From Pseudoalteromonas sp. GCY (GTDB lineage Bacteria; Pseudomonadota; Gammaproteobacteria; Enterobacterales; Alteromonadaceae): 64,000 bases of DNA. The DNA lies in contig NZ_CP068023.1 of NCBI RefSeq assembly GCF_016695175.1, forward strand, positions 2,495,501 through 2,559,500, in the 5' to 3' direction. The translations under genes were made by a program, and so were the position numbers. A model generated the notes under the pieces. It saw nothing but the letters and a program-made list of their open reading frames with translations. It had not been told where the DNA came from and ran no database searches. Below, piece after piece: positions 57,993 through 62,404 of this stretch (position 1 is the first letter of the stretch; each line of letters starts with the position of its first letter).

Positions 57993-59489
57993 CTACTCAA
58001 GGTTACTAGCTGAAGAAAGCACATAACACCCCGGCTTTCTTGGGCAGCTTTTTCCTCGAGTACAAATCACCCGAACTGAGCCCTCAAGCCCTCTTTCAAT
58101 CCACTGGATATTTAAAATCTTGGCGACACGGAGTAATTGGGTTTTCATATGATAGGGCACCACGCTCGCCCCACCGTGGCTAATACAAGCTTGTTGCAAT
58201 TCTCCAATCAAGGCATCGGCATCAATCCCTTGTGCATTAATAGCAGGATTGAGATCGAGACCTGCGCACAACACCCTTGGACGATTCGCAACATCAACGA
58301 TTTTTACTGACTCACAGCAATACAAACGCGGTTTACCATTGACGTTCAGGATCGAAAGCTGAGCACTGGCACTATTACTATCATCATGAAATTTACGAAA
58401 TACGGCCCAGTGCTGACACGGATCGGCAACGCTACGCATATTGCCCCAAGGTAAAGGAATGCCATTGCCCCGATACACCGCCTTTAGTTTACCTGCTTGA
58501 TAAGCATCAAAATAATGCCAATGTGGATAAGGTGAAACCGATGTCATTCTGCGCATTGCGACGGAAGCAGAAATACCAAGTTGCTCATGGACGCGCACAT
58601 CGTAACCTCGGCTTTCGAGTAACTGCCGAAATGGTGTACGGGGACACAATAAAGCCCCTGCGAAGAAGCTCGATTCAAAATCTTGCCACGCGCTCAAAAT
58701 ATCTTGGGCATTTGGGGTATCGTGATCTGGATTATCACTACTCTTTCGGCTTTCTCCAGTCGTGAGTACACATTCTAAACCCTCACTATTGTGAAGCACG
58801 GCATGGCCAATATGAACGGCTAAATCGTATTTCATTCTCGCGGGATGTGCGTGCAACGCGCGATTTATAAACACCATGTTTGGCTCTTTGAAATAAGAAG
58901 TGATCATCCCCTCTCCGTCAGGCGAAGATTGCTCAAACCACTCCACTTTTCGACCTTTTGCTATCAAGATTGCCATGAGGTCATCACAGCTGAGATAGAG
59001 ATTTTTACCTCCCACTTCATCGGCTGCTCGCTCTAAATCAGGAAAGTGGTTTTGATGGTGTTCTTGGTGGGCGCGGATCAAAAGGTGCGCAAACTGCCTA
59101 CCACTGATCCCCGCTTGGGACAGCATTTCTGGGATCGCAATTTGTAATATCTCTTTGGCAAATAGAAAGTTGGGCTCTAAAGCCATCCCCATTATCCCAC
59201 CGAAATTGCCTTTATCTGGCGCTATCTCCGGTGCTTCTGGTTGACTGTCTAAAAACCACTCAATCGGCTTTTGAAATACAGTAGAGAAGTTTTCGAGCAT
59301 CGCTTCGCTTGGCGTACGCTGGCCTCTTTCAATCATTGATAGGTAGGAAACGGAGGGCGCACTGGCCGGATCTTGCTTAACACATCGAGCCGATAAGTCT
59401 TCTAAAGTCAGATGGTTACGCTTTCTTAGATTTCTTATTTTAGTGCCCAAAAAGTGAGACTTTCTAATTAAGCTTGCAACTTTTGCCAT
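57993..59489 (-). CDS. XRE-type ScfR short-chain fatty-acyl regulator (RamB/PrpR-like)
   Basis: 498 residues. N-terminal HTH (about 14-70: LGTKIRNLRKRNHLTLEDLS, SVSYLSMIERGQRTP), a central IrrE/M78-like region with AVHIGHAVLHNSEG (about 224-237) and FESSFFAGALLCP, and a C-terminal DUF2083 part containing a Cys pair (CTRGKSCPRKPGC). The HExxH of M78 peptidases is replaced by HIGHA, so protease activity is unlikely. ScfR members such as RamB and MccR control glyoxylate-shunt or methylcitrate genes through acyl-CoA sensing. ATG 59489 follows GGGGTG; the open frame upstream runs 88 codons into the divergent gene region and is Cys-rich and unconserved. Confidence 0.88.
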   Translation of the reverse strand: MAKVASLIRKSHFLGTKIRNLRKRNHLTLEDLSARCVKQDPASAPSVSYLSMIERGQRTPSEAMLENFSTVFQKPIEWFLDSQPEAPEIAPDKGNFGGIMGMALEPNFLFAKEILQIAIPEMLSQAGISGRQFAHLLIRAHQEHHQNHFPDLERAADEVGGKNLYLSCDDLMAILIAKGRKVEWFEQSSPDGEGMITSYFKEPNMVFINRALHAHPARMKYDLAVHIGHAVLHNSEGLECVLTTGESRKSSDNPDHDTPNAQDILSAWQDFESSFFAGALLCPRTPFRQLLESRGYDVRVHEQLGISASVAMRRMTSVSPYPHWHYFDAYQAGKLKAVYRGNGIPLPWGNMRSVADPCQHWAVFRKFHDDSNSASAQLSILNVNGKPRLYCCESVKIVDVANRPRVLCAGLDLNPAINAQGIDADALIGELQQACISHGGASVVPYHMKTQLLRVAKILNIQWIERGLEGSVRVICTRGKSCPRKPGCYVLSSASNLE

Positions 59490-59490
59490 G

Positions 59491-59544
59491 ATTTCACACC
59501 CCATTTTTGTGAAATTCACACTGTGAAATTCTTTTTGTGAAATT
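59491..59544. promoter_or_regulatory. phased repeat array between the ScfR regulator and mini-protein genes
   Basis: TGTGAAATT occurs at 59508-59516, 59522-59530 and 59536-59544, exactly 14 bp apart. The reversed half ATTTCACA is at 59491-59498, and TTCACACTGTGAA (59515-59527) is a palindrome between copies one and two. The array covers the regulator's ribosome site, so autorepression plus control of the divergent operon is likely. Confidence 0.75.
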
Positions 59545-59634
59545 ATTTGAATATTTAACTTACACTCAAAATGTACACGAAACAACCAGAATATATTTCC
59601 CAATTTATGACAACATGAACAAGTGAGGTGGATC

Positions 59635-60123
59635 ATGGCAGCGCAATTACAACCGCATACAGAGCAACCAATTGACGATACGAAAGCGCAACAGTCAATG
59701 CTGGCAAAACAGTATCTTGATGAACAATGTCCTTTAGAATTTGGCTCACACATGGAGGTGACAGACTATGTGGTTTACTACAATCACCTGCTTGCGTTTT
59801 TTGCCAACGGTACCCATTGTGGTTTAAAAAATTGTAGCCAATTCGTCGCGCTTTGCGGTCACCGTGAAACGCCAGAGGCTATTTTGTTAAAACAGGACGA
59901 TGGCTTACATATTGAAATTACCTTCAATCGCACCGGAATGCTCGGCCAATTTGATAGCGCCCATATCGAAGATATTATCGTCGAAACACCACTGGCGTCT
60001 GTGGTTGGTAAAAAGACTAAAACCCAGCTACAAAAACTGTGGATGAGCTTTTATCACGGAGTGCAACAACCGGCAGGAAAAGCCTGTTATCGTGCCAAAA
60101 ATGGGGATGATTATGAACTTTGA
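59635..60123 (+). CDS. small protein resembling an internal segment of malate synthase G
   Basis: 162 residues. The order of motifs QYLDEQCPLEFGSHMEVTDY, LAFFANGTHCGLKNCSQFV and ILLKQDDGLHIEI, then QFDSAHIEDIIVETPLASVV, follows the remembered malate synthase G region (FLDE-PL-GSH-VT-Y ... GL-QFV-G ... PEA-LL-GLHIEI ... DVVLESAL). Other parts of the synthase, including its N-terminus and the C-terminal catalytic Asp domain, are missing, so catalysis is not expected. ATG 59635 follows GTGAGGTGG. It is divergent from the ScfR gene. A regulatory or acyl-CoA-binding role is inference. Confidence 0.7.
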   Translation: MAAQLQPHTEQPIDDTKAQQSMLAKQYLDEQCPLEFGSHMEVTDYVVYYNHLLAFFANGTHCGLKNCSQFVALCGHRETPEAILLKQDDGLHIEITFNRTGMLGQFDSAHIEDIIVETPLASVVGKKTKTQLQKLWMSFYHGVQQPAGKACYRAKNGDDYEL

Positions 60124-60217: not shown

Positions 60218-62404
60218 ATGACTAAATTGCTTAATTTTCTAAAAAACATTAACTGGATGCTTTGGGCGCTCATACTTGGCATTTTTGCTGGTTTAGTTTT
60301 CGGTGAACGGTTATCATTTTTAAAACCTATCGGTACAGGTTTTGTAAATCTGATGCAAATCACCATTCTCCCTTATATTGTCGTCAGCCTTATCGTGGGT
60401 TTGGGGAAATTTAATCCCGAACAAGTTAAAAGCATTCTTGCAAAAGCGGCGTTAGTCATGATCTCCATTTGGGTGGTAGGTCTTGCTGTGATCTGGTGCT
60501 TTATTATGACATTACCAGCGCATGATGCCGGGACCTTTTTCTCCCCAGCACTGGTCGCCGCAGCTCCCGAAGTAGACTTCGTTAAACATTATATTCCCTC
60601 TAATCCCTTTGCTTCTATGGCAGAAGGTAATGTACCTGCCTTAGTCATATTTTGTATTGCGCTAGGTATGGCGCTTATTTCTAATCAAAAGAAAAACCGT
60701 TTGCTCGATGTGTTAGAAGTTGTCGGTCAAGGTCTGTCGGTTATTTCCAAGAAGATCATTGCCATCTTCCCTATCGGCATTTTTGCGATGACAGCAAGCA
60801 CCGCAGGCACCATGAGCGCAGAAGAGCTATCTGAATTGCAAGTGTACTGGGTTGTCGTGTTATGTGTCGGCGTGTATTTGATGTTAGTACTACTACCTAT
60901 GCTTGTTGCTGCACTCACCCCAGTTAAGTACCGCGACCTTATAATGGTTATGCGCAATGCGTGGATCACCGCATTTAGTACCGGAAACGTTTTTATTGTA
61001 TTGCCAGTGATCACCGAGGGGATCAAAGAGCATTTACGCAAAATTAAGCAAAGCGACGAAAGCTCTGATCACATCGCTGAGGTGTTAGTGCCAATCGCTT
61101 ATACCTTCCCGAGTTTAGGAAAGCTTACGACCCTCATTTTTGTCTCTTTTGCAGCATGGCTTACAGGCAACCAAATCGGCATCGAACAAATTCCTAATGT
61201 GTCTTTGTCGGCGATGCTAAGTTACTTTGCTAACGTACATATCGCTATTCCCTATTTGCTCGATACCTTGCGTGTCCCGGCTGATACTTATCAGTTATAT
61301 CTATCGATGTCAGTACTCACCGCAAAAGTGGTTTCACCGACCACTGTGGTGTATATCTTCGCATTTGTATTTTTATGTATTTTCATCAACCGCAGACAAT
61401 TACACCTAAAACGCGTGCGCTCGGTTTATTATTTAACGCTACTATCTGCATTACTCCCAGCATTTATGTTGTTGAGTTTTACAGCAAATAATTACCTTGG
61501 TAAACAAACTAAATCGGCCGATGAGGCCATTGCTAATATGGTGATTTCAGATACCGTCCCTGCTCATGTGCTTAGCTATGTCCCTAAAGCATACCAAAGT
61601 GGTGAGTTGTCTTTGACAAATATCGATGTGATTAAAAAACGTAACTTGCTGCGTGTTGGATATCTTATCGATAATGTGCCGTTTAGTTACTTTAATCAAA
61701 AAGACCAGTTAGTTGGTTTTGATGTCAGCCTCGCACATGGGCTCGCATCCGACCTTGGGGTTAAAATCGAGTTTATTCCTTTCAAAAAGCCACAACTGGC
61801 AGAGTATCTCAACAAAGGATATTTCGACATTGCAATGTCTGGCCTTGAAATTAATATTGCCGACTTACAAAGCGTGCGCTTTAGTGACAAGGTGTTGGAA
61901 CTGCAACTGGCGCTCTTGGCCAAAGATCATGATTTAAAGAAGTTTGCTGACAAGTCAGCCCTACTTACGCTTGATAAGCTGAATTTAGCTCACGTTGAGT
62001 ATGCTCCGCTACTCAAACAATTGGCGCAGCAAAACCCTAAGGTAAAAGTATCCGGTATTAACAATCTGCAAAGCTATTTTAAGCACCCAGAAAAATATGA
62101 CGCCTTAGTGATCAGCGCAGAGGCGGGCTTTGCATGGAGCATGTTCTACCCTAAATTTGGTGTTGTAGTGCCGGAAGGGGCGAGTTTGAAATACCCCGTT
62201 GGATTTGCTGTCGCCAAGCGCAATCAAGATTTACTGAGTTATGTAAATGCTTGGCTGACTATCCAGCATACCAATGGCCGTATTGAAAAAACCTATGATT
62301 ACTGGATCTTAGGAAAAGGTAGTGTACAAAAGCAAACTCGCTGGTCGTTAATGGATGAACTTGAAATCGACCCAAACACACTTATTGATAAACTGAAGTT
62401 CTAA
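60218..62404 (+). CDS. DAACS-type symporter fused to a periplasmic solute-binding domain
   Basis: 728 residues. Residues 1-400 form a DAACS (GltP/DctA-like) membrane core; a further hydrophobic segment at about 405-422 (LTLLSALLPAFMLLSF) leads into an SBP_bac_3 domain at about 470-705 (NLLRVGYLIDNVPFSYFNQ, LVGFDVSLAHGLASDLGVKI, YFDIAMSGLEI). The symporter half lacks the usual NMDGT Na+/substrate motif in TM7, reading YTFPSLGKL instead, and HP1 reads AFSTGNVFIVLP. Substrate is probably an amino acid or dicarboxylate but is not identifiable. It follows the mini-protein gene by 94 bp on the same strand. Confidence 0.88.
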   Translation: MTKLLNFLKNINWMLWALILGIFAGLVFGERLSFLKPIGTGFVNLMQITILPYIVVSLIVGLGKFNPEQVKSILAKAALVMISIWVVGLAVIWCFIMTLPAHDAGTFFSPALVAAAPEVDFVKHYIPSNPFASMAEGNVPALVIFCIALGMALISNQKKNRLLDVLEVVGQGLSVISKKIIAIFPIGIFAMTASTAGTMSAEELSELQVYWVVVLCVGVYLMLVLLPMLVAALTPVKYRDLIMVMRNAWITAFSTGNVFIVLPVITEGIKEHLRKIKQSDESSDHIAEVLVPIAYTFPSLGKLTTLIFVSFAAWLTGNQIGIEQIPNVSLSAMLSYFANVHIAIPYLLDTLRVPADTYQLYLSMSVLTAKVVSPTTVVYIFAFVFLCIFINRRQLHLKRVRSVYYLTLLSALLPAFMLLSFTANNYLGKQTKSADEAIANMVISDTVPAHVLSYVPKAYQSGELSLTNIDVIKKRNLLRVGYLIDNVPFSYFNQKDQLVGFDVSLAHGLASDLGVKIEFIPFKKPQLAEYLNKGYFDIAMSGLEINIADLQSVRFSDKVLELQLALLAKDHDLKKFADKSALLTLDKLNLAHVEYAPLLKQLAQQNPKVKVSGINNLQSYFKHPEKYDALVISAEAGFAWSMFYPKFGVVVPEGASLKYPVGFAVAKRNQDLLSYVNAWLTIQHTNGRIEKTYDYWILGKGSVQKQTRWSLMDELEIDPNTLIDKLKF

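Follow-up and report, generated by a model that had tools for sequence, protein, structure and literature searches.

The ScfR regulators PrpR and RamB share an HTH and an IrrE-like middle domain. In the available excerpts of PMC6765138 and PMC10370305, their operator is formed by two boxes with an 18-bp spacer, the [4Fe4S] ligands of MtPrpR are Cys363 and the motif 447C-x2-C-x4-C455, and a free malate synthase G (MSG) domain beside the regulator is not mentioned. Trigger or moonlighting enzymes, e.g. Caulobacter citrate synthase (PMC7083601), have a regulatory role separable from catalysis. Among the matches listed, the open-licence PMC literature described neither a stand-alone MSG insertion nor a DUF3612 system, apart from a V. 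vulnificus study and a metatranscriptome discussed below, and where searched it did not name DUF3612.

The window analyzed here is a stretch of 64,000 nucleotides from Pseudoalteromonas sp. GCY (GCF_016695175.1, NZ_CP068023.1 positions 2,495,501 to 2,559,500). It carries a DUF3612 regulator gene and, divergent from it, a gene (the mini-gene) for a free-standing MSG domain (the mini-protein). The features, in window positions, are:

57993..59489, minus strand: divergent regulator, 498 aa from the ATG at 59489, with HTH_3, IrrE-like PF06114 and PF12268 (DUF3612).
59507..59544, plus strand: operator-like element of 38 bp with three boxes TTGTRAAATT, intergenic between the divergent genes.
59507-59516, 59521-59530 and 59535-59544: the three boxes, with 14-bp spacing; box 2 starts with C here.
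59625..59631, plus strand: GAGGTGG, ribosome-binding-like, before the ATG at 59635, read in the sequence.
59635..60123, plus strand: mini-protein, 162 aa, the free-standing alpha/beta insertion domain of MSG (PF20658).
59701..60006, plus strand: segment 1, mini-protein residues 23-124, homologous by alignment to MSG residues 174-274 (5vfb numbering).
60007..60120, plus strand: segment 2 (alpha/beta), mini-protein residues 125-162, reaching MSG residue 331 approximately, by alignment and predicted structure.

We show that the mini-protein is an MSG-derived, selected and catalytically empty domain, encoded under a shared operator-like element and next to one regulator. This identity is firmly supported. 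As to mechanism, the domain of a former shunt-operon MSG would most likely serve as co-regulator of the DUF3612 protein, a reading to which we give a probability of about 0.5.

The PF20658 score of the mini-protein is 57.5 bits (curated cut-off 24.8). The structure model is confident except at residues 122-132 (pLDDT < 50), and in a fold comparison the predicted fold is that of the PF20658 domain in solved MSG. No match to PF01274 (TIM barrel) or PF20659 was found in the mini-protein at E 1, and with TIGR01345, the model of full MSG, it scored 69.6 bits, far below the cut-off of 989.15. The preliminary description had read the gene as an internal MSG segment without the catalytic domain and had called for a structural comparison with MSG; the observation was confirmed, and the predicted fold agrees with it. 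Identity as a malate synthase enzyme was ruled out, because the barrel is missing by the PF01274 and TIGR01345 tests. When compared to MSG (GlcB), the mini-protein lacks the TIM barrel, the clasp and the C-terminal domain, and hence the catalytic residues, and the piece of barrel that separates the two alpha/beta segments in MSG is also missing; it has, on the other hand, residues typical of the MSG proteins encoded beside the DUF3612 regulator (regulator-linked MSG).

The closest database model by length is NF006511/PRK08951, a 190-aa 'malate synthase' subfamily model, whose name denotes an enzyme and is contradicted by the domain content of the mini-protein. The mini-protein scored 158.5 bits with it over residues 17-162, missing the curated cut-off of 173, which was passed by matches in 62/394 genomes of the order, a few of them full-length frames. 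This model and many records label such proteins 'malate synthase' although they lack the catalytic barrel.

The regulator was read from the ATG at 59489; an alternative start at 59753 (from the ORF list) would overlap the mini-gene and is unlikely. In 20 regulator members scanned at E 0.1, the one from the window included, HTH_3 was matched in 20/20, PF06114 in 18/20 and PF12268 in 20/20. DUF2083, the Pfam ScfR C-terminal domain (presumably PF09856), was absent from the nine families matched by these 20 members at E 0.1, so that by Pfam the regulator was rejected as an ScfR. The earlier placement in the ScfR family therefore stands for the HTH, the IrrE-like domain and the PrpR-like fold predicted by fold comparison, and fails for the C-terminal domain, which is DUF3612 instead. 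PDB sequence searches with the regulator returned short matches only, mostly to the HTH.

When compared with the excerpted accounts of PrpR and RamB (PMC6765138, PMC10370305), the regulator is only 13-15% identical and differs in its C-terminal domain; DUF3612 loci have three boxes with 14-bp spacing and a free MSG domain beside the regulator. Nine cysteines (36, 282, 358, 392, 408, 435, 476, 482 and 488) are invariant in 20 regulator sequences, and the C-terminal spacing, C-x5-C-x5-C, is different from the C-x2-C-x4-C reported for MtPrpR. An antiphage function was considered and discarded: the PADLOC matches of the regulator (HTH_VI, RmrA, capH, capP) were weak and fell mostly on the HTH or IrrE-like parts, and PADLOC gave no match for the mini-protein.

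Co-occurrence with the regulator, which the preliminary description had suggested examining, was complete. Among 108 genomes of the genus, 47 carry the mini-gene, the identical 47 carry the DUF3612 regulator, and the genes are divergent and adjacent in 47/47. Across the order, DUF3612 (E 1e-30) was found in 95/394 genomes with a divergent MSG-family neighbour in 95/95, in a count that used a subset of 126 MSG rows and scored the nearer mini-gene of a tandem pair (genome G483) as not adjacent. By open frame, the 95 adjoining genes are 66 mini (≤235 aa), 25 full-length (718-779 aa) and four intermediate (346, 360, 416 and 453 aa), the 453-aa case (G344) being a full-length gene broken in two (445 and 274 aa). 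Some genomes with an adjacent copy hold a second or even a third short one; there are 18 such additional copies, one of them in tandem (G483).

At class level, PF20658 was matched 81 times, in 77 of 369 genomes. Four of the frames are short: besides the mini-gene of the window, they comprise the G753 frame, which adjoins DUF3612, the G663 frame, which lies away from the DUF3612 gene of its genome, and a stop-containing fragment of 87 aa in G606, which is not a DUF3612-positive genome. The stand-alone frames without a stop (G000, G753 and G663) all lie in DUF3612-positive genomes. Such co-inheritance, perfect as it is, would also be expected if the regulator merely controlled the mini-gene, and in this respect it counts against a co-regulatory role.

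A protein search with the mini-protein gave 27 relatives, the named ones from Pseudoalteromonas and Colwellia, and a profile search gave at least 197, of which the 120 listed are largely from Vibrio, with Shewanella, Aliivibrio, Gallaecimonas, Pseudoalteromonas and Colwellia. Starting from a longer relative, 43 proteins of 170-414 aa were found (named: Glaciecola, Shewanella and one partial Marinomonas). By best named protein matches, the genomes G355, G128, G466 and G483 are Vibrio (91-100%), G365 is Aliivibrio-like (83-87%), G240 and G387 are Shewanella (96-98%), G167 is Gallaecimonas (100%) and G479 is Glaciecola (100%). A malate synthase barrel was present somewhere in all 30 genomes checked, and 11 of 17 mini-gene genomes had only a malate synthase A-type frame, without an MSG barrel. 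Each of the 47 mini-gene genomes of the genus also has a second match, and where this is listed it is a frame of 557-780 aa.

Three boxes TTGTRAAATT with 14-bp spacing lie between regulator and MSG-type gene in 27/27 loci from many families, as read by eye, whether that gene is full-length, intermediate or mini. At up to 3 mismatches the pattern occurs at 28 places in 23/23 genomes, every one upstream of an MSG-type gene; all five extra short MSG copies in these genomes are preceded by it, and the reversed pattern gave no match in the same 23 genomes. Position and conservation suggest that the regulator binds these boxes. Extra mini-genes with their own operators were seen in Vibrio: two stand in tandem beside the regulator in G483 (L065, L264), one comes immediately behind glcB in G128 (L110) and one lies beside a BCCT transporter gene in G466 (L265).

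In the genome of the window, the operator of the mini-gene is the sole match at up to 3 mismatches, which counts against the co-regulatory reading. The search for a separate glcB proposed earlier found one, as a glcB-aceA pair on contig 1, and no operator was found at this pair, so that an output to the shunt is not seen in this genome; two weaker sites (contigs 1 and 2) are unconvincing and away from shunt genes. With a looser two-box pattern, which yields chance matches (control counts 0-2 per genome), sites were found upstream of aceB in three mini-gene genomes (G355, G274 and G365). None was found at any further aceB or glcB locus scanned, including those of Shewanella and Gallaecimonas, and this too speaks against the preferred reading. 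The three sites belong to two Vibrio and one Aliivibrio-like genome and lie between aceB and the next upstream gene (L246:2882-2968, L247, L248; a LysR-type gene in L246), with a second, weaker site nearby on the opposite strand.

The full-length linked genes point to the origin of the locus. Those scanned (L115, L274, L281) encode complete MSG by domain content. The motifs MDEERR, GFLDRTGDE, LMEDRATLRI and GCSKVPDI are present in 22/22 linked full-length MSG and VRNVGHL in 18/22 (23/30 in ordinary GlcB); we take these motifs to be catalytic. Asp631 and Arg338 are named in the excerpt of PMC3832036. In 8/9 neighbourhoods the linked full-length gene is followed directly downstream by a gene of one cluster (531-538 aa), whose scanned members (L115, L117, L110) are isocitrate lyase. 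The ancestral locus can therefore be read as regulator / glcB-aceA. Across 22 neighbourhoods, isocitrate lyase (9 loci) is the only gene to recur widely besides the MSG gene and the regulator.

Outside the order, the locus reads regulator / 137-aa mini / isocitrate lyase in G753 (L272) and regulator / isocitrate lyase / MSG in G663. In G740 the regulator is on one contig and MSG-isocitrate lyase on another, and 38 bases of operator region are common to the ends of both; in G848 the locus is only partial. A distant DUF3612 regulator (G514, L275:6116-10688) faces malate synthase A and isocitrate lyase; its operator is degenerate, with 6 mismatches, and PF20658 was not matched anywhere in that genome. 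This locus indicates that a DUF3612 regulator does not require the domain in every genome, and favours a regulator of the shunt in the first place; DUF3612 (PF12268) is likely to be a glyoxylate-shunt regulator. Proteins of ~330-400 aa (L114:8482-9510, L124:6463-7674, P0028-P0053) stand between enzyme and mini-protein: in L114 and L124 a remnant of the N-terminal clasp and degraded barrel strands surround the alpha/beta domain, which makes a stage in the reduction of the enzyme visible.

Sequence comparison indicates that the mini lineage descends from regulator-linked MSG, and not from the GlcB that shares its cell. In an 85-row tree, ordinary GlcB stands on one side and the regulator-linked MSG, intermediate and mini proteins on the other (100/99), with the G663 pair as the exception; mini and intermediate proteins form one group (99/96). 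The stand-alone protein of G663, whose gene has an operator-like site with 3 mismatches, pairs with the full-length MSG of the same genome (99/96) within the ordinary GlcB side; given its long branch (1.68), it is apparently a second, separate reduction to the stand-alone domain. In a quick tree of 139 rows GlcB is again apart (98), and mini and intermediate proteins are joined only at 90. The short second copies L125 and L187 are set apart there from the remaining mini-proteins by a branch of 1.46, which counts against the preferred reading. Eleven copies, the regulator-side mini-proteins of G483 and G206 included, cluster in the quick tree.

Both trees rest on 141-143 columns only. The mini-proteins were thinned for the 85-row tree, 23/26 full-length-type linked loci were fetched and 30 ordinary GlcB were chosen by hand. 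Before the trees and the conservation counts we removed the regulator-centred loci L072-L107, in which the locus end truncates the mini copies; G344 (broken frame), L125 and L187 were left out of the conservation counts as well. Residues H51, G63, A72 and Y160 of the mini-protein have frequencies of 0.91-1.00 in linked MSG and mini-proteins, and of 0.00-0.07 in GlcB.

The mini-gene is under purifying selection: dS was finite in 17 of 19 pairs, and in these dN/dS (Nei-Gojobori) is 0.01-0.10. For 12 of the 17, dS is larger than 1; the remaining five, with dS below 1, range from 0.012 to 0.101 in dN/dS. In the full-length proteins, the alpha/beta domain is 7-15 points more alike in linked MSG than in GlcB in all five shared bins of barrel identity (0.572 vs. 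0.475 at barrel identity 0.70-0.75), whereas in the N-terminal region the two differ by ≤2 points across bins (0.553 vs. 0.545 at 0.70-0.75). This excess comes from non-independent pairs, with mini-proteins in the alignment, one bin with two linked pairs and no significance test; as supporting evidence, it suggests that an extra constraint on the alpha/beta domain may predate the loss of the enzyme.

Expression has been reported under another name. In the excerpts of a V. vulnificus study, 'glcB (VV2_1647), a malate synthase-related protein' is up-regulated in stationary-phase cells in defined medium, as are aceA and aceB, and VV2_1647 expression is altered in stressosome mutants, with a lower protein level in one mutant. 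Both published 'glcB' qPCR primers encode six-residue peptides of P0083, a 206-aa mini-protein; the published 'glcB' of V. vulnificus is therefore its mini-gene. In the excerpt of a marine metatranscriptome, a 'malate synthase-related protein' made up ~0.5% of reads vs. ~0.9% for malate synthase in one treatment, and this label probably denotes the mini-gene as well.

These data suggest that a domain kept beside the regulator has a regulatory job apart from catalysis. In the mechanism that we favour, (i) the ancestral MSG gene would have stood first among the enzyme genes of a glcB-aceA operon for the glyoxylate shunt, divergent from its own ScfR/PrpR-like regulator (DUF3612); (ii) at this full-length stage the domain would have reported enzyme level or ligand state to the regulator, in a trigger-enzyme arrangement; (iii) the barrel, the N-terminal clasp and the C-terminal domain would then have been lost, with domain, operator and regulator retained together; and (iv) at the mini stage the reporting module alone would be left, to close an autoregulatory loop and tune the shunt genes. 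A regulatory role separable from catalysis would be shared with trigger enzymes, but here the enzyme part was lost in evolution and a domain of 160-200 residues was left.

Co-regulation is favoured because the retained part is more conserved where a DUF3612 regulator adjoins and the full enzyme is dispensable (11/17). It also draws on the complete linkage in genus and order and the confinement of stand-alone class frames without a stop to DUF3612-positive genomes; on the downstream isocitrate lyase (8/9 full-length loci and the G753 mini locus), the shared boxes and the aceB two-box sites; and on the tree, the conservation excess, dN/dS and the co-regulation with aceA and aceB reported in V. 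vulnificus. Contact with the regulator is inferred from genomic linkage, and the direction of the effect and the ligand are likewise inferences. More tentatively, the alpha/beta insertion of the DUF3612-linked lineage may be a regulatory module read by a PrpR-like factor, through which the enzyme reported its abundance or ligand state, and apparently twice (in the main lineage and in G663) the enzyme was discarded or bypassed and the domain kept or copied out as a free protein.

The main rival, possible though less probable than co-regulation, is that the DUF3612 protein merely switches the mini-gene on and the mini-protein acts elsewhere, for instance as a regulatory subunit (in isocitrate lyase or in malate synthase A) or by binding a metabolite. 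Since the strong operator stands only at MSG-type genes in the 23 genomes scanned, the mini-protein looks like the main product of the circuit; this distribution fits the rival and co-regulation alike, and our confidence in the latter is held no higher for that reason. That extra copies far from the regulator keep their own operator would be expected if dosage matters, and the isocitrate lyase gene after the G753 mini-gene, the co-induction with aceA and aceB in the V. vulnificus excerpts and the barrel found in each of the 30 genomes agree with an action elsewhere. Against it, the regulator would seem to have an output besides the mini-gene, to judge from the aceB sites of three genomes, and isocitrate lyase apart, no further neighbour recurs widely in the 22 neighbourhoods.

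Binding to full-length MSG, or replacement of a domain in it, is improbable. The predicted fold equals that of the GlcB domain, a second match accompanies the mini-gene throughout the genus, and in G128 a second mini-gene directly follows glcB on the same strand. As a general role, however, the partnership with the enzyme that the preliminary description had considered is contradicted by the 11/17 mini-gene genomes without an MSG barrel, and by descent from the linked MSG instead of the cohabiting GlcB. Its overall interpretation survives in part: of the two partners proposed, the enzyme falls away as a general role and the regulator is favoured, at even odds.

A local function with the gene that begins 94 bp past the mini-gene, e.g. 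in dicarboxylate uptake, is very improbable. This gene (60218-62404, plus strand) encodes a 728-aa SDF dicarboxylate symporter fused to SBP_bac_3, no terminator-like site was found between the two genes, and they are adjacent in 19/30 Pseudoalteromonas loci; but the transporter was not found at the other 11 loci (~1.5 kb fetched) nor in 20 other neighbourhoods. That the mini-gene is a decaying relic or a spacer without protein function is barely credible: the intermediate lengths (342-403 aa) and the shortened L125 and L187 resemble erosion, and individual short second copies could be decaying, but the low dN/dS rules out a pseudogene for the family, which is kept across several genera, is duplicated with its operators and has a confidently predicted fold, and in V. 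vulnificus the excerpts report a regulated transcript and a protein level.

For the organisms concerned, the 'malate synthase' database entries of Vibrio, Shewanella and Pseudoalteromonas include proteins unable to be that enzyme. For the family, the parts of the literature covered here give no function to the large insertion by which malate synthase G differs from A; a lineage in which nothing but this insertion is left, coupled to a single regulator and a single operator, allows its role to be tested directly.
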